Assembly (NCBI RefSeq): GCF_000341105.1
Contig: NZ_ANBB01000002.1
Coordinates: 62,001-126,000, forward strand
Origin: Nocardiopsis potens DSM 45234
Lineage (GTDB): Bacteria; Actinomycetota; Actinomycetes; Streptosporangiales; Streptosporangiaceae
Length of the DNA stretch: 64,000 nt
Direction: 5' to 3'
Shown: one piece after another, positions 2,891 through 58,870 of the stretch
How positions within the stretch are numbered: position 1 is the stretch's first letter
Layout of the letters: the number at the start of each line of letters is the position of its first letter
Position numbers and translations under genes: made by a program
The notes under the pieces: model-generated
Databases searched by the model: none
The model's input: only the letters and a program-made list of their open reading frames with translations
What the model was told of the DNA's origin: nothing

Positions 2891-2946
2891 GTGCCCGGGC
2901 GCCCGCCGGGCGGGCCCCGCGCCCCGGCGCGCGCCCTCGCCCCTTC

Positions 2947-2979
2947 CCGATGATCTTGACGCTGCGACCCTGGCAGAGC
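2947..2979 (+). repeat. Left half of split palindrome
   Basis: Begins CCGATGATCTTGACGCTGCG and ends TGGCAGAGC. It corresponds to one arm of the intact 66-bp palindrome at 51037-51102 and pairs with 4539-4570 (29 of 32 positions complementary). The break falls exactly at the centre AGAGC/GCTCT. Confidence 0.75.
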
Positions 2980-3060
2980 GCCTTGTCGTCAATTGGCCGC
3001 TGCAATGAGGAACAGCGAGGAACTCGGGGAGGGGCGAGGGACGGAGGGACGGGAAGATGC

Positions 3061-3470
3061 CCCGACCGAGCGCGGCGCCCCACGGGGGGAGGATTCGAGC
3101 GGGCGGCGAGGGCAGGGGTGGGGGCCGGCCGGTCGGTCGGGCGCGGCGCCCCGCGGAGTGAAGGTTCAGGCGGGCGGCGAGGGCAGGGGTGGGGGCCGGC
3201 CGGTCGGTCGGGCGCGGCGCCCCGCGGAGTGAAGGTTCAGGCGGGCGGCGAGGGCAGGGGTGGGGGCCGGCCGGTCGGTCCGGCGCGGCGCCTCACGGAG
3301 CGAAGGTTCAAGCAGGCGGCGACGGCACCGGTGGGGGCGGGGTGCAGGTGGTCGCCCGGGCGCGGCGCCTCACGGGGTGGGGTTCAAGCGGGCGGCGAAG
3401 GCGGCGGTGGGGACCGGCCGGTCGGTCCAGTGCGGCGGAGCAGAGCGAGGCGGCCGGGGCGGGTAGGGGG
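3061..3470 (+). repeat. Left tandem array, 71/76-bp units
   Basis: About five and a half direct units. The landmark GTTCA occurs at 3164, 3235, 3306 and 3382 (steps 71, 71, 76). Each unit contains GCGCGGCGCC, then GTTCARGC, then GCGGGCGGCGA, then CCGGCCGGTCGGTC in the 71-bp type. Units 3131-3201 and 3202-3272 are almost identical. Confidence 0.85.
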
Positions 3471-3990
3471 GCGGGTTCACCGTGCCCGCGTCGTCCGAGC
3501 GCCGGGGCCGGCTGCCCTTGAAACCGCTGCACCTCTCTGACCTGCGTGAATACACACGGTGATGGTGGTGGGGGGTGCCCTGCGCACCGCGAGAGCACCC
3601 CGGTGATTCCTGGGCGCGCATCCCGGCCCGGATCGGCTCTCGGGAGGCCCGATTGGCCCTGATCGGGCTGGTGATCGGGGTTCGAGCCGCCCGGAAGGCC
3701 GGGATGTAGGGGGCCGGAACCCGAGCAGGGGCGATGTGGGGGCGAGATGTCGCTTTTGTTTCCCTGGGAGGTCTCGCTTTGGCCACTCTGGGTGACCGGC
3801 AGGGGGGTGGTGGGGGTCTGGGGGCTTACTACTCGCTGGTAGATGTAATCGGGGTGCCGCCGGGGTGCGCAGGGTGCCCTCGCCCCTGCCTGCTTCCCGC
3901 CGCGAATCCGGCATATAGGGATAAGGTCCCCTAGTGGGCCCGGGCAGGCCCACTCCCGCCTTCGCCGGGGCGCCGCCCCGCTCCCCGCCG
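3471..3990. other. Conserved noncoding core of repeat element, copy 1
   Basis: About 500 bases that align along their length with the reverse complement of 58000-58560. Shared blocks include TTACTACTCGCTGGTAGATG (at 3826), GATCCGGGCCGGGATG-like and GGTTTCAAGGGC-like segments, and a GGCATAT-GGATA-CCCCT segment near 3910-3935. Short insertions and deletions between copies shift every reading frame, which argues against a protein. It contains an operator-like dyad, CTACC-AGCG-AGTAG when read on the minus strand. Confidence 0.65.
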
Positions 3991-4493
3991 AGAGCCCTCG
4001 CGGCCCTGGCCGGCGAACGCGGCGCCCGCCCCTCCCGCCCTCGCTGCCTGCTTGAACCCCGGCCCCGCGAGGCGCCGCACCCGACCGACCGGCCGGCACG
4101 TCCTCCCGCCGTCGCCGCCCGCTTGAACCCTCGCTCCGCGAGGCGCCGCGCTCGGGTGACCGCCTTCGCCCCGGTCCTACCTTCGCCGTCGCCGCCGGTT
4201 TGAACCCTGGCCCTGTGGGGCGCCGTACCCGGGCGGCCCCCGCACTCCGCCCCCACCTCTGCCGTCGCTGCCTGCTTGAGCCCTGGCCCCGTGGGGCGCC
4301 GCGCTCGACCGACCGGCCGGTCCCCCTCCCCGCCCTTGCTGCCTGCTTGAACCTTCGCTCTGTGGGACGCCGCGCCCGGGTAAGGACCTTCGCTCCGCTC
4401 CTTCCTGCGCCGTCACCGCTCGCTTGAACCTGCACTCTGCGAGGCGCCGCGCCCGCCCGACCGACCGGCCGGTCCCCTTCCCTCCCCTCCTCT
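3991..4493 (-). repeat. Right tandem array, 71/77-bp units, inverted
   Basis: About six units in the opposite orientation to the left array. The landmark TTGA(A/G)C follows positions 4051, 4122, 4199, 4275, 4346 and 4423 (steps 71, 77, 76, 71, 77). The long and short units tend to alternate. The short type carries ACCGACCGGCCGGT and the long type CCCGGGT plus a CTTCGCC segment. Confidence 0.85.
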
Positions 4494-4538
4494 TCTTTCC
4501 TCCGGTGGGCGGTGTTGCGACGGACACTGAGGCCACCC

Positions 4539-4570
4539 GCTCTGACAGGGCCGCAGCGTCGAGATCATCG
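4539..4570 (-). repeat. Right half of split palindrome
   Basis: GCTCTGACAGGGCCGCAGCG followed by TCGAGATCATCG. It is the complement of 2947-2979 and resembles the right arm of the 66-bp palindrome at 51037-51102. Confidence 0.75.
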
Positions 4571-4716
4571 CCCTGGGGGAGGGGCCGCCCGGGCCCGGTT
4601 GACCCTGCCCCCGTGTCATGCCCTGCACTGGGGGCACCGAGCCCGCCGTCGGCGGCCCCGGGGCCGGTGGCGCGTCCGGCCGGTCCGGGGACCGCCGGCC
4701 GACCGAAGGACCCCGC

Positions 4717-29649: not shown

Positions 29650-29667
29650 CCGGCCCCGCCGGGACCG

Positions 29668-29702
29668 CCGCGGCCCCCGCCCCGACCGGGCGGGGGCCGC
29701 GG
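29668..29702 (+). terminator. Terminator hairpin of adoK
   Basis: Arms of 15 bases (CCGCGGCCCCCGCCC and complement) with the loop CGACC, 19 bases after the stop. Confidence 0.8.
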
Positions 29703-30065
29703 CGCTTCCCGGGGGCCTCCGGGGAGGCCCGCGGTGCGCGGCGCGCGCCCGCCGCCGGTGCACGGCGCCCGGAGTGGTCGGGGCATCCCCCTCGACCGCG
29801 TAAAGTAGAGGCTCGACCCGCATGCCCGGACCGAACGCCGGCCGCCTCACGGCGGACGGCCGCGCCGCGCGTGCACGACCAGGCCCCGCGCTGAGATGCG
29901 CGGCGGCTTCCAGTCAACGCCAATGCCGCCGCGGCGGGGGTCGGCCGCGCCGGCGCGGGAACGGCGCCGCCCTCGGGCGGCCGGGGCCGTCGTCCGACGC
30001 CTCCCAGAACTAGGCGAGCCTTACCTGGGATTCCCTACGCAAGCAATCCAGTACGGAGGACTTCA
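29703..30065 (+). other. rpsD promoter and leader region
   Basis: Contains a TAAAGT hexamer near 29802 that may be a -10 element, giving a leader of about 250 bases, and a GGAGGACTTCA ribosome site directly before rpsD. I see no recognisable S4-binding pseudoknot, though the leader is long enough for autogenous control. Confidence 0.45.
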
Positions 30066-34754: not shown

Positions 34755-34775
34755 CGGCGCACCTCGTGTGACCAA

Positions 34776-34826
34776 CCTCGGCCCGCCCGCTTCCCCTGTG
34801 CCACAAGGGGAGGGGGCGGGCCGAGG
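34776..34826 (+). terminator. Terminator of ctaCDF operon
   Basis: Imperfect 25-base arms (CCTCGGCCCGCCCGC... / ...GGGCGGGCCGAGG) followed by TATTCTTTT. Confidence 0.85.
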
Positions 34827-34976
34827 TATTCTTTTGGGACGGCCCGCCGACCGTCGACCGCTGGTCCGGTACGGGCCGCTTCGACCACCCGGTTTCGGAA
34901 CTTTCTCCTCGGCGCGGACGTCCCACCCAGACGCGCACTGGGTGCCTCCGTGCGCGAGAGTCTGGAGGGCGTACCT

Positions 34977-47891: not shown

Positions 47892-47906
47892 CCCCGCTTC
47901 CCCGAC

Positions 47907-47962
47907 GGTCTCGGTGCCGCGGCCCCGCCGGAGCGCTCCGGCGGGGCCGCGGCACCGAGACC
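47907..47962 (+). terminator. Perfect 56-bp palindrome after NYN gene
   Basis: Two 28-base arms with no spacer (GGTCTCGGTGCCGCGGCCCC... centre GGAGC/GCTCC), 15 bases after the stop. No T-run. Same architecture as 1268-1311 and 51037-51102 but different outer sequence. Confidence 0.75.
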
Positions 47963-48473
47963 ACCGCCCCATCGCCCGGGGCGCGGCACCGGGTCGCCGC
48001 GGCCCCTGATAGCGTCGCGGGGCCGCCCGTGTACGCGGTGTGGCCCATCTGTGATCTGTGTGACCCATCTGTAATGCGGGTTCCGCCGGGGCTGGATCGG
48101 CCGACTGGGCAGGAAGAACGCCCCTGTCGCGGGGGCGGCGCCCCCCGTTACCGCTTCGTTGTTGTGGTTGAGCCTGCTGGGAGGGTCCGCTAGTTTTTCC
48201 CAGGAGCTTGACCGCCCCGCGCACCCCAGCGCAGGAGGCGGGCCCCGGCAGGGTCGACACTTCCGGGTCCGCCGCCGGCCGCCGCGGGGCTCCCCGATGA
48301 ACCCCAGCGGGAGCGCGCGGTCGTGCTGCCGTGTCGAACGGATGCCCGAGCGACTCTTCGCGACCGCGGTCCCCGCTCCCCGGTCCGAGTGCGCCGATCC
48401 GCAGCACTGACCCCCGTCCCCCGTCCCCAGTCCCCACCAAGCGGGGATCGACCAGCAAGGAGCGTGGACCGCC
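47963..48473 (+). other. Promoter and long leader of first NlpC gene
   Basis: 511 bases without a gene. A promoter is visible at 48168-48196; the leader from there is about 270 bases. I could not identify a known riboswitch in it. Confidence 0.45.
48168..48196 (+). promoter_or_regulatory. Promoter of first NlpC/P60 gene
   Basis: -35 TTGAGC (48168-48173), 17-base spacer, -10 TAGTTT (48191-48196). The arrangement repeats before the second NlpC gene at 49597-49625. Confidence 0.6.
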
Positions 48474-49481
48474 ATGGCGAACAACGGTGGTCGGCGCACG
48501 GCCCGCCGGGTAGCGACCGGCCTCGGGGTCGTGGCGGCCGGCAGCCTGATCGCGTCCACCGGTGCCGGCGTGGCCAACGCCGAGCCGGAGCAGAGCAAGG
48601 AGGACGTCCAGGAGAAGCTGGACGAACTCAACGAAGAGGCCGGCAAGGTCGTCGACGAGTACAACAAGGCCAACGAGGACTACAAGGCCGCCAAGGCCAA
48701 GGCCGACGAGCTCGACGAAGAGGTCGGCGACGAGCAGGAGCGCTACGAGGAGCTGCGGGACCAGGTCTCGGAGTTCGCCAGCGCCGCCTACCAGGGCCGG
48801 GACCTGGACTCCACTTCGGTCGTGCTGAGCGTCGACGACCCCTCCGACCTCCTCGACCAGTCCGCGGACGTCAGCAAGCTCTCCGAGGACCAGCAGGCCA
48901 AGCTGGACGAGTTCAGCGACTCCTCCGAGCGGCTGTTCAAGCTCAAGGACGAGGCCGACGAGGCCCTGGAGAAGGCCAAGGACGACAAGGAGGCCGCGGA
49001 GGAGAAGAAGGAGGAGGTCGAGGAGAAGATCTCCGAGCAGGAGGACCTCCTCGCCCAGTTCCCCGACGCCGACGCCTCCCCCGAGGGGGAGGAGACCTCC
49101 TCCGGCGGCGGCTCGGCCGAGGGCGCCTCGGGCAACGCCCGCACCGCCCTGGACTTCGCCCTGTCCCAGGTCGGCAAGCCGTACGTGTACGGCGCCGCCG
49201 GCCCGGACGGCTACGACTGCTCCGGCCTGGTCATGCGCTCCTGGGGCGCGGCCGGCGTGAGCCTGCCCCGCACCACCTACGGCCAGGCCGAGGCGGGCAC
49301 CCGGGTGGGCCGCGACGCGCTGCAGCCCGGCGACATCCTGTTCTTCAGCGGGCTGGGCCACGACGGCCTCTACCTCGGCAACGGCCAGATGGTGCACGCC
49401 CCGCGCACCGGCAAGAACATCGAGGTCGTGCCGCTGGCCGGCTACTGGGACGGCCAGTTCATGTACGGCGTGCGCGTGTAG
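48474..49481 (+). CDS. NlpC/P60 peptidoglycan endopeptidase, RipA-like
   Basis: Secreted hydrolase of 335 aa cleaving peptide stems. Signal peptide (residues 1-36, ending GVANAEP), long Lys/Glu/Asp coiled coil (about 37-205), flexible Gly/Ser hinge, and NlpC/P60 domain (about 215-335) with catalytic Cys in YDCSGLV, His in LGHDGLYLG and a polar third residue near MVHAPRTG. ATG at 48474, AAGGAGCG upstream. The coiled coil resembles the autoinhibitory region of RipA/PcsB-type enzymes that answer to FtsX. Confidence 0.94.
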   Translation: MANNGGRRTARRVATGLGVVAAGSLIASTGAGVANAEPEQSKEDVQEKLDELNEEAGKVVDEYNKANEDYKAAKAKADELDEEVGDEQERYEELRDQVSEFASAAYQGRDLDSTSVVLSVDDPSDLLDQSADVSKLSEDQQAKLDEFSDSSERLFKLKDEADEALEKAKDDKEAAEEKKEEVEEKISEQEDLLAQFPDADASPEGEETSSGGGSAEGASGNARTALDFALSQVGKPYVYGAAGPDGYDCSGLVMRSWGAAGVSLPRTTYGQAEAGTRVGRDALQPGDILFFSGLGHDGLYLGNGQMVHAPRTGKNIEVVPLAGYWDGQFMYGVRV

Positions 49482-49885: not shown

Positions 49886-50947
49886 GTGGACCAACGACGC
49901 GAGCGCGGCACGCACCGCCGCACCTTCGCGACCGTCGGCTTCATCGCCGCCGGCGCCCTGCTGGCTTCTACCGCCGTCACCGGGACGGCGTACGCCGACC
50001 CGTCCGCGGACGACGTCCGCAGCAAGATCGAGAAGCTCCAGGAGGAGTACGCGGGACTCGCGGAGGCCTACAACCAGGCCAAGGAGGACCACGACGCCGC
50101 CAAGAGCAAGCTGGCCGACATCCGCGAGGAGCGGAAGGGCGTCCAGGAGAAGCTCGAGGAGATGCGGTCGGGCGTGCGCGAGCTGGCCACCGCGGCCTAC
50201 TCCGGCTCCGACTACGGCTCCGTCCCCTTCCTGGCCTCCTCCACCGGCCCGGAGGACGCCCTGGCGCAGGCCTCCGACCTCGGCTACCTGTCCCAGAGCC
50301 AGCAGGACCAGCTGGGCAACTACACCGAGGAGAAGGACAAGCTCGACAAGCTCGAGGCCGAGGCCGACGACACGGCCGACGAGGCCAAGGAGAAGCTGAA
50401 GGAGTCCAAGGAGGCCAAGAGCGACGCCGAGGAGAAGATCGCCGAGCAGGAGGAGATCCTGGACGGCCTCACCGCGGACGAGCGCGCCGAGGCCACCGAG
50501 GGCGTCGACGGCGGCTCCTCTTCCTCCTCCGGCGGCGGCTCCTCCTCCTCGGGCGGCTCCACCGGCGGCGCCTCCTACAACGGCTCGGCCAGCGGAAACG
50601 CCCGGACCGCGATCGACTTCGCCTACGCCCAGATCGGCGACTCCTACAGCCTCGGCGCCAACGGCCCCGACGTGTGGGACTGCTCCAGCCTGGTCCAGGC
50701 GGCCTGGCGCGAGGCCGGGGTGAACCTGCCCCGCACCACCTACGACCAGATCAACGCCGGGACCTCGGTCTCCTACGACAACCTGCAGCCGGGCGACCTC
50801 GTCTTCTTCTACAGCGGGCCGTCCCACGTCGGGCTGTACGTCGGCGACGGCAAGATGGTGCACGCCTCCAACCCGTCCAAGCCGGTCGCGGAGGTGCAGA
50901 TGTCCCCCTACTGGAGCGGGCAGTTCACCGGCGCCATCCGCCCCTGA
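49886..50947 (+). CDS. NlpC/P60 peptidoglycan endopeptidase, second copy
   Basis: 353 aa, paralog of the preceding gene: signal peptide (ending GTAYADP), coiled coil (about residues 38-205), Ser/Gly-rich hinge (SSSSSGGGSSSSGGS), and a catalytic domain with WDCSSLVQAAW, GPSHVGLYVGDG and MVHASNPS. In the catalytic motif CSG is replaced by CSS. GTG at 49886 chosen; AGGTGG upstream. Shares promoter architecture with its neighbour, so both are probably co-regulated in growth. Confidence 0.92.
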   Translation: MDQRRERGTHRRTFATVGFIAAGALLASTAVTGTAYADPSADDVRSKIEKLQEEYAGLAEAYNQAKEDHDAAKSKLADIREERKGVQEKLEEMRSGVRELATAAYSGSDYGSVPFLASSTGPEDALAQASDLGYLSQSQQDQLGNYTEEKDKLDKLEAEADDTADEAKEKLKESKEAKSDAEEKIAEQEEILDGLTADERAEATEGVDGGSSSSSGGGSSSSGGSTGGASYNGSASGNARTAIDFAYAQIGDSYSLGANGPDVWDCSSLVQAAWREAGVNLPRTTYDQINAGTSVSYDNLQPGDLVFFYSGPSHVGLYVGDGKMVHASNPSKPVAEVQMSPYWSGQFTGAIRP

Positions 50948-51036: not shown

Positions 51037-51102
51037 CCGATGATCTTGACGTTGCGGGGGTGTCAGAGCGCTCTGACACCCCCGCAACGTCAAGATCATC
51101 GG
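51037..51102. repeat. Perfect 66-bp palindrome
   Basis: Two 33-base arms without a spacer, beginning CCGATGATCTTGACGTTGCG and centred on AGAGC/GCTCT. It lies just after a normal terminator, so termination is not its obvious role. The same sequence, split, bounds repeat element copy 1 (2947-2979 and 4539-4570), and its core matches 1268-1311. Confidence 0.85.
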
Positions 51103-55200: not shown

Positions 55201-55256
55201 ACCGGTCCGGGGCGGTCCGGAACCGAGGCGGAACCGGTCCGGAACCCGTCCGGGCG

Positions 55257-55292
55257 GCCCCGGGGTCGCGGCACCGAGGCCGCGACCCCGGG
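55257..55292. terminator. Hairpin downstream of 31-bp array
   Basis: Arms CCCCGGGGTCGCGG and CCGCGACCCCGGGG with the loop CACCGAGG. Confidence 0.65.
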
Positions 55293-55307
55293 GCCGCGTC
55301 GCGGATT

Positions 55308-55353
55308 GGTCCGGACCTTTGGTTTACTCCAATCGTCTGATTCGGTCCGGACC
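55308..55353 (+). promoter_or_regulatory. Paired GGTCCGGACC operator before glucokinase
   Basis: The 10-bp palindrome GGTCCGGACC occurs at 55308-55317 and 55344-55353, 36 bases apart (start to start), flanking a lower-GC segment that probably holds the promoter. The motif resembles GntR/DasR-type boxes (TGGTC-nn-GACCA). The second copy ends 16 bases before the start codon. Confidence 0.6.
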
Positions 55354-57589: not shown

Positions 57590-57633
57590 GCGCCCTCTCC
57601 CGGCGGCCTCGGCGCTCCGGCCCGCCGGTGCCG

Positions 57634-57990
57634 CTCGGGCACGGGGCTCCACGGGGTCGGGGTTCAAACAGGCGGCGAGGGCGGGGAGAGGCACCGGCCG
57701 GTCGGTCGGGCGCGGCGCCTCACGGTGCGGGGGTTCAGGCGGGCGGCGACGGCGAAGGTAGGGCCGGAGTGCAGGCGTCGCCCGGGCGCGGCGCCTCGCG
57801 GGGCCGGGGTCCAAACGGGCGGCGAAGGCGGTGGTGGGGAACCGGCTGGTCGGTCGGGTGCGGCGCTCCACGGGGTGAAGGTTCAGGCTGGCGGCGACGG
57901 CAGAGGTGGGGGCGGGGCCGGGCGCTCCAGCCGAGTGCGGCGTCTCGCGGAGCGGAGGTTCAGGCGGGCGGCGAGGGCGGGTAAGGGGCG
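57634..57990 (+). repeat. Left tandem array of copy 2
   Basis: Five units. The landmark GTTCA/GTCCA occurs at 57662, 57733, 57809, 57881 and 57958 (steps 71, 76, 72, 77): regular alternation of short and long units. Confidence 0.85.
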
Positions 57991-57999
57991 GGCGCCGCG

Positions 58000-58560
58000 T
58001 TCACCGGCCCGGCTCGACGCGTGCTCCCGGTGGGGCGGGGCTCCGGAGGGGCGGGCGGGCCCGTCCCGCTAGGGCTCGCCAGGGGGTCATATCCCATATG
58101 CCCGGCTTGTGGCGGGGAACGGGCGGGAGCGGGGGCGCCCTGCGCACCTCCGCAGCACCCCGATTACATCTACCAGCGAGTAGTAAGCCCTGAGGCTCCC
58201 ACCGCCCCCTCATCGATTACCCAGAGTGGCCAAAGCGGGGCCTCTGAAGGGACAAAAGAGACATCTCAACTCCGCCCCTACCCTCCCGGGGTTCCGGCCC
58301 CCTGCTTCCCGGCCTTCCGGGCGGTGTAAACCCCCGCTCACCGGCCCGGCCGGGGGGATTCGGGCCTCTCGGGGGCCGATCCGGGCCGGGATGAGCGCCC
58401 AGGAATCATCGAGGTGCTCTCGCGGTGTGCAGGGCGCCTCCTATGATCATCACCCTGCGTATTTGCCCAGCTCGGGAAGGGGTAGCGGTTTCAAGGGCTG
58501 CCGACCCCGGCGCCCGGGGCGACACGGGCAGGCGACCCCGCCACCCCACCCTGCCCCGAC
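58000..58560. other. Conserved noncoding core, copy 2
   Basis: Aligns with the reverse complement of 3471-3990. The longest exact match I see is 27 bases at 58163-58189, starting ATTACATCTACCAGCGAGTA. Frame-shifting indels separate the copies on either side of this block. Confidence 0.65.
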
Positions 58561-58564
58561 CGCC

Positions 58565-58815
58565 CCCACCCGCTCTGCCGCGCCTGACCGACCGGCCGGT
58601 GCCCCTGCCTGCCTTCGCCGCCCGCTTGAACCTTCACCCCGTGGGGTGCCGCACCCGGCTGGGGCGCCCGGCCTTGTCCCTTCCTGCGCCGTTGCCGCCG
58701 GTTTGAGCCTTCGCTCTGTGGGGTGCCGCGCCTGACCGACCGGCCGGTGCCCCTGCCTGCCTTCGCCGCCCGCCTTAACCCTCGCCCCGTGGGGTGCCGC
58801 GCCCGGGTGATCGCC
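58565..58815 (-). repeat. Right tandem array of copy 2, inverted
   Basis: About three units. The landmark (C/T)TTGA(A/G) occurs at 58625 and 58702, with a diverged CTTAACC at about 58774 (steps 77, 72). Confidence 0.8.
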
Positions 58816-58870
58816 TCCGTCATGTTCCCGCCTTCGCCGGGCGTCTGCGGGGGATCGGGGCCCGGAAACG

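Follow-up and report, generated by a model that had tools for sequence, protein, structure and literature searches.

The 64,000-nucleotide stretch of Nocardiopsis potens DSM 45234 analysed here (the window; contig NZ_ANBB01000002.1, positions 62,001 to 126,000) contains two copies of a long non-coding sequence in which an array of short units is followed by a core and then by the same units inverted. The question was what kind of element this is and whether it is confined to these two places. An earlier note described it as a two-copy element, possibly a nonautonomous mobile or structural one. The first goal was to verify the anatomy and determine the copy number and range of the repeat. The second goal was to examine its ends and its sites in related genomes, then to weigh the possible origins. 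We find that the element is one of roughly 120 copies in a single actinomycete genome, can fold into a giant hairpin, and is probably a mobile element of a build known from flies and plants. It was not found described from bacteria in the papers searched, which excluded most subscription journals.

Anatomy, copy number and range of the repeat

Both copies exist where the earlier note placed them and have the plan it described. Copy 1 has a left array of direct units at 3067-3437 (+), with steps of about 71 (type A) and 76–77 (type B) bases, followed by a core at 3438-3990 (+) and a right array of the same units inverted at 4023-4478 (-). GTTCA landmarks step 71, 71, 76 on the left, and the inverted landmarks step 71, 77, 147, 77 on the right, where 147 equals the 76+71 given in the note. 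The left and right arrays pair at 76–83% over 130–166 nt. Copy 2 comprises an array at 57619-57990 (+), a core in the opposite orientation at 58032-58541 (-), and an array at 58577-58839 (-). Its exact landmarks step 71, 148, 77 (148 = 76+72), but the steps of 77 and 72 that the note gave for its other side could not be recovered with the exact landmark, since only one exact site was present there. The two copies align in opposite orientation over 1162 columns (3209-4353 against 58805-57661) at 77% identity (E=0). The longest exact shared block, at 3822-3857 (+), is 36 bases rather than the 27 reported in the note. The note also missed the outer ends of copy 1. These are 32-bp half-palindromes at 2948-2979 (+) and 4539-4570 (-), with a B-type inner end at 2982-3010 (+) (3 mismatches to the motif) and an A-type inner end at 4511-4535 (-) (6 mismatches). 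No outer arms were found for copy 2.

The description as a two-copy element is true of the window but not of the genome. Three core signatures hit the window's own 6.9-Mb, 133-contig genome (G000) 118, 119 and 125 times, with no hits for the reversed patterns. The strands are balanced (60/58). Five contigs (C38, C47, C48, C63 and C77) end within about 310 bases of a core signature, so the assembly breaks in copies and copy counts are approximate. After duplicates were removed, 108 distinct G000 copies were examined, including the two in the window, along with 19 places in one congener, G004. Of these 19, 18 have distinct cores and all match the core consensus. A 24-mer signature with up to 3 mismatches hit G004 16 times and the other four congeners (G001, G002, G003 and G005) not at all. 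The nearest named relatives of a flanking protein are Nocardiopsis species (N. suaedae 90%, N. endophytica 89%, N. halophila 93% over residues 1–245).

In a DNA search of 341 family genomes, long matches appeared only in G000 and G004. The other 339 gave only short hits, in 30 genomes, the best being 53.6 bits over 65 bases, but as only two candidates were scored per genome, diverged copies elsewhere are not excluded. One short match, in G005 (C189:9095-9119), is a single 25-base, 96% match to the best conserved core block. A 31-mer search of the 341 genomes found only G000, which is a stringent test because that pattern also misses G004. A 22-mer scan of a wider set of genome contigs found nothing, although the window's own and very near genomes may be left out of that set.

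Median core identity between G000 copies is 82% (range 69–94%). Two blocks stand out in an alignment of 102 G000 and 18 G004 cores. CGCGAGAGCACCCCGGTGATTCC, at 3588-3610 (+) by reading of the sequence, is near-invariant in G000 and less so in G004 (mean 0.65). CTACTCGCTGGTAGATG, which lies within the 36-base block, is conserved in both genomes (0.93). A protein-coding core was rejected, as 158 of 248 deletion events in the core alignment are 1 nt. Array and context counts were made on 99 G000 copies with long enough flanks. They average 4.8 units on the left and 5.4 on the right, and 96 of 99 have at least two on both sides. Neighbouring units alternate in type 393 times and repeat type 145 times, which bears out the impression in the note that two unit types tend to alternate. 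Units of one array are only marginally more alike than units of different copies (0.792 against 0.780 for type A, 0.758 against 0.746 for type B), which is evidence against recent local array growth, although G004 copy L137 looks locally amplified by eye. Six folds of five copies (both strands of copy 1, one strand of four others) pair the left array with the right array, with z scores of -13 to -48 against six shuffles each. This follows from the inverted arrays and is not separate proof of function.

Ends, solo palindromes and site occupancy

The arrays are bordered on at least one side by an A or B end of about 25–29 bases and/or a 32-base arm in 42 of 99 G000 copies, or 45 of 99 with a looser pattern, whereas the reversed flanks of 117 copies gave 0. 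Inner ends and arms co-occur, with 47 of 51 A/B ends having an arm on the same side. Both arms are present in 18 copies, which measure 1138–1895 bp from arm to arm. The remaining 54 of 99 copies have no end features under the looser pattern. Possession of ends is at most weakly a lineage trait, since the nearest neighbour shares the with/without-ends class in 58 of 99 copies against 49.9 expected.

Two facing arms back to back make a 64-bp palindrome that also exists alone. In the window, solo palindromes occur at 47903-47966 and, as a perfect palindrome, at 51038-51101. A diverged variant at about 1258-1321 (64 bp by our reading) was not picked up by a stricter scan. Other palindromes at 29652-29717, 34775-34827 and 55236-55317 were not matched to this family. 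The same self-comparison revealed diverged direct repeats at 49097-49461 and 50557-50927 (72% identical) and at 48660-49051 and 50069-50460 (66%), possibly a gene duplication. The arm pattern hits 228 times in G000 and 217 times in G004, against 13–15 times in each of the other four congeners, where the reversed control gives 1–5. Among 47 distinct solo palindromes, 1445 of 1504 cells are Watson-Crick, 151 cells have changed on both sides, and 18 of 32 pairs show such compensatory changes. The paired share is partly by construction, because at least 28 of 32 self-matching positions were required. Solo palindromes lie between called genes, a median of 22 bp from stop codons (quartiles 11–66, n=57 flanks; gene calls by GC3 periodicity). 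In G000 6 are convergent, 9 tandem and 4 divergent of 19; in G004 11 are convergent, 12 tandem, 1 divergent and 3 undetermined of 27. They may act as bidirectional terminators, although no U-tract was seen in the 30 palindrome flanks inspected, without RNA data.

Element-free orthologs were found for five sites, without mapping all 108 copies. For copy 1, the 1690 bp at window positions 2892-4581 correspond to 99 bp in G004 (L348), with flanks 88–89% identical and no palindrome. For copy 2, the same gene junction has a spacer of about 46 bp in N. suaedae (L251), by our reading of the stop codons, while in N. endophytica (L269) a short spacer holds a 64-nt imperfect hairpin with 13-nt perfect arms and related ends. 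L269, an 8.9-kb locus, has three 64-nt hairpins (at 3975, 4803 and 6950) with CG(A/T)TGATCTCG-type ends, perfect over 13, 15 and 28 outer positions. Their interiors differ, suggesting that fixed length matters more than interior sequence. A strict pattern found no others in 784 kb of 80 loci, and none in reversed controls. For the G000 copy L178, the same spacer in G004 (L220) holds a near-perfect palindrome and no element. For L164, the G004 spacer is 281 bp without element or palindrome. For L035, the right arm plus right flank match the right half of a palindrome plus flank in G004 (L233), but the left flank is not orthologous. The element is thus gained or lost, which is not a demonstration of transposition itself.

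Nine of the 19 G004 places are also occupied in G000, five matched on both flanks and four on one (P about 2e-8 if 3000 sites were equally likely, an assumed number). Only one pair, L147 in G004 and L210 in G000, has sister cores (91.8%; FastTree). In the other eight the mean relative rank is 0.6, so the cores are no closer than random copies. L148/L042 aligns without a break through flanks and element at 82%, and could also be a fast-evolving ortholog. Two of the nine sites have the core in opposite orientation. A capture-recapture estimate gives roughly 230–260 usable sites. These results fit either repeated insertion into few preferred sites or overwriting by gene conversion, and we cannot separate the two.

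Of the 99 G000 copies, 45 are called between convergent genes, 44 tandem, 6 divergent and 4 undetermined; of 18 G004 copies the numbers are 6, 10, 0 and 2. Copy 1 lies between divergent genes and copy 2 between convergent genes. Convergent and divergent junctions are equally numerous on a chromosome, so 45:6 is a strong bias (P=2e-8).

Possible origins of the element

The reading we favour, as somewhat more likely than not, is a family of non-autonomous, foldback-type mobile elements. In this view a transposase or recombinase supplied in trans recognises the ends and/or array units and inserts the element preferentially at the centre of 64-bp palindromes. The inverted arrays would let the core flip by homologous recombination, and ends would decay in older copies while arrays and core persist. 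Copy number, strand balance, defined ends and differing site occupancy support mobility. Shared sites whose cores are not close relatives are as expected from repeated insertion into few preferred sites. Ends occur in the order A-B in 10 copies and B-A in 5, and this, like the opposite core orientations at shared sites, is predicted by array-mediated flipping. Some observations fit poorly. No mobilising transposase was found, though Y1_Tnp was the only transposase searched genome-wide and the window as a whole was not tested for others. No autonomous copy was found either. A search with the end motif gave 22 places, by coordinates mostly near known copies or contig ends, and three others showed arms, ends and array units but no autonomous copy. 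One of these is the far end of L210 (contig C2, about 242.5–244.6 kb), a copy interrupted by an ISL3-like transposase ORF next to a DinB-like ORF. These ORFs were named by reading the translation, without a family search, and the transposase-like one was read as a secondary insertion. No clear target-site duplication was evident by reading the sequence, as a GCGC at the palindrome apex is ambiguous. The copy 1 site in G004 lacks a palindrome, so there the arms came with the element or in an earlier step, and in G004 copy L132 an intact palindrome lies beside the right array rather than being split by it. Finally, copies without ends keep cores as conserved as copies with ends (3.1 against 4.1 mismatches at conserved columns, P=0.14), which mobility alone does not explain. 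Function or gene conversion after insertion is therefore also likely.

A possible but less likely alternative is an in-situ functional element, a giant hairpin kept by selection at gene 3′ ends to stop or insulate transcription from both sides, with any mobility ancient. The convergent bias, the conserved cores of end-less copies, the array-to-array folds, and the presence of palindrome and element in the same spacer in different species (L178/L220 and copy 2/N. endophytica) agree with this. Even in 18 close pairs, differences avoid conserved columns (0.017 in columns at least 97% conserved against 0.28 in columns under 60%). Transitions outnumber transversions 5.9:1 in palindromes, 1.9–2.0 in units and 1.4 in core pairs, against 0.56 in flanks. 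However, gene conversion would also confine differences to variable columns, and the flanks are a mostly coding reference, not a neutral one. Sites are empty in relatives without obvious replacement (L348, L251 and L211), copy 1 lies between divergent genes, and the repeat was seen in only 2 of 6 congeners. More doubtful is a set of old, mostly immobile repeats homogenised by non-allelic gene conversion, in which shared sites are ancestral and cores were overwritten within each genome. This would account for shared sites with non-sister cores and for units nearly equally similar within and between copies. The only sister pair, L147/L210, carries in G000 the ISL3-like insertion, which could block conversion (its presence in G004 is inferred from the flank alignment), but a single exception is thin evidence. 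The empty sites and the median core identity of only 82% also speak against it.

Two further possibilities are improbable. A transcribed structured non-coding RNA, with the core as the RNA and the arrays as flanks, is suggested by the conserved core blocks and by consensus energies below those of 10 column shuffles on both strands (-44.6 against -9.6 to -32.5; -27.0 against -6.2 to -18.1). The covariation term was not supportive (+3.5 on plus, +0.8 on minus), and one arm of the core's own inverted repeat is invariant while the other varies. There was no Rfam match up to E=1 over 2900-4650 nor at gathering score in the window, and no tRNA in the window. Least likely is a REPIN/RAYT-type palindrome family with incidental insertions. 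The 64-bp palindromes are repeated, self-complementary and lie between called genes, but G000 and G004 have no Y1_Tnp (PF01797) match, while all four congeners without the repeat have one over the cut-off (two of them partial). This origin also does not explain the arrays or core.

Comparison with known elements and implications

The build matches that of the eukaryotic foldback transposons Tetris (PMC4079207) and Galileo (PMC2775673). They have long terminal inverted repeats with internal tandem repeats around a middle domain, and non-coding copies. Tetris has no autonomous partner found and shares its outermost ends with a short MITE, DAIBAM (compare the 64-bp palindrome), and one pair of Galileo copies has a middle segment in opposite orientations. 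The present element differs in its bacterial host, its two alternating unit types, conserved core blocks across copies, and a palindrome that lies outside the arrays and looks like a target site. No homology is claimed. The target choice resembles that of IS elements that insert into REP palindromes (ISPsy8, ISPa11, ISPpu9/10, IS621; PMC1525189). ISPsy8 inserts at the symmetry axis of a predicted hairpin, and ISPa11 lacks the usual direct repeats. Those elements carry a transposase gene, however, and the palindrome here is 64 bp and of a different sequence. Prokaryotic MITEs (QMITE, Chunjie; PMC10969869; also MITEAba12) are likewise non-coding and multicopy with inverted ends, and have shorter relatives. 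They are typically under 500 bp with TIRs of about 4–30 bp and flanking direct repeats in younger copies, whereas here copies are about 1.1–1.9 kb with array-built arms of hundreds of bases and no clear direct repeats. The solo palindromes resemble REP/BIME and REPIN elements (PMC3733652, PMC1525189) in place and number, but no Y1_Tnp (RAYT-type) gene was found in the two carriers. We therefore call this a foldback-like element, not a member of any tested family.

A more speculative reading, which we consider unlikely though not excluded, is a bacterial foldback transposon class that homes to the symmetry axis of a fixed-length palindromic terminator family and, once settled, is kept as a giant invertible hairpin at gene ends. 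Palindrome and element would then be interchangeable small and giant forms of one system that occupies an estimated 2.5% of the genome (about 120 copies of about 1.4 kb) and seeds rearrangements.

The element may explain some assembly breaks, and its conserved core gives a handle for finding the protein that moves or binds it. Long inverted repeats are probably unstable in bacteria in general, and a genome that carries about 120 mirror-image array elements of 1–2 kb would challenge that. If the elements home to palindromic terminators, this would be a bacterial counterpart of foldback transposons with a new target choice.
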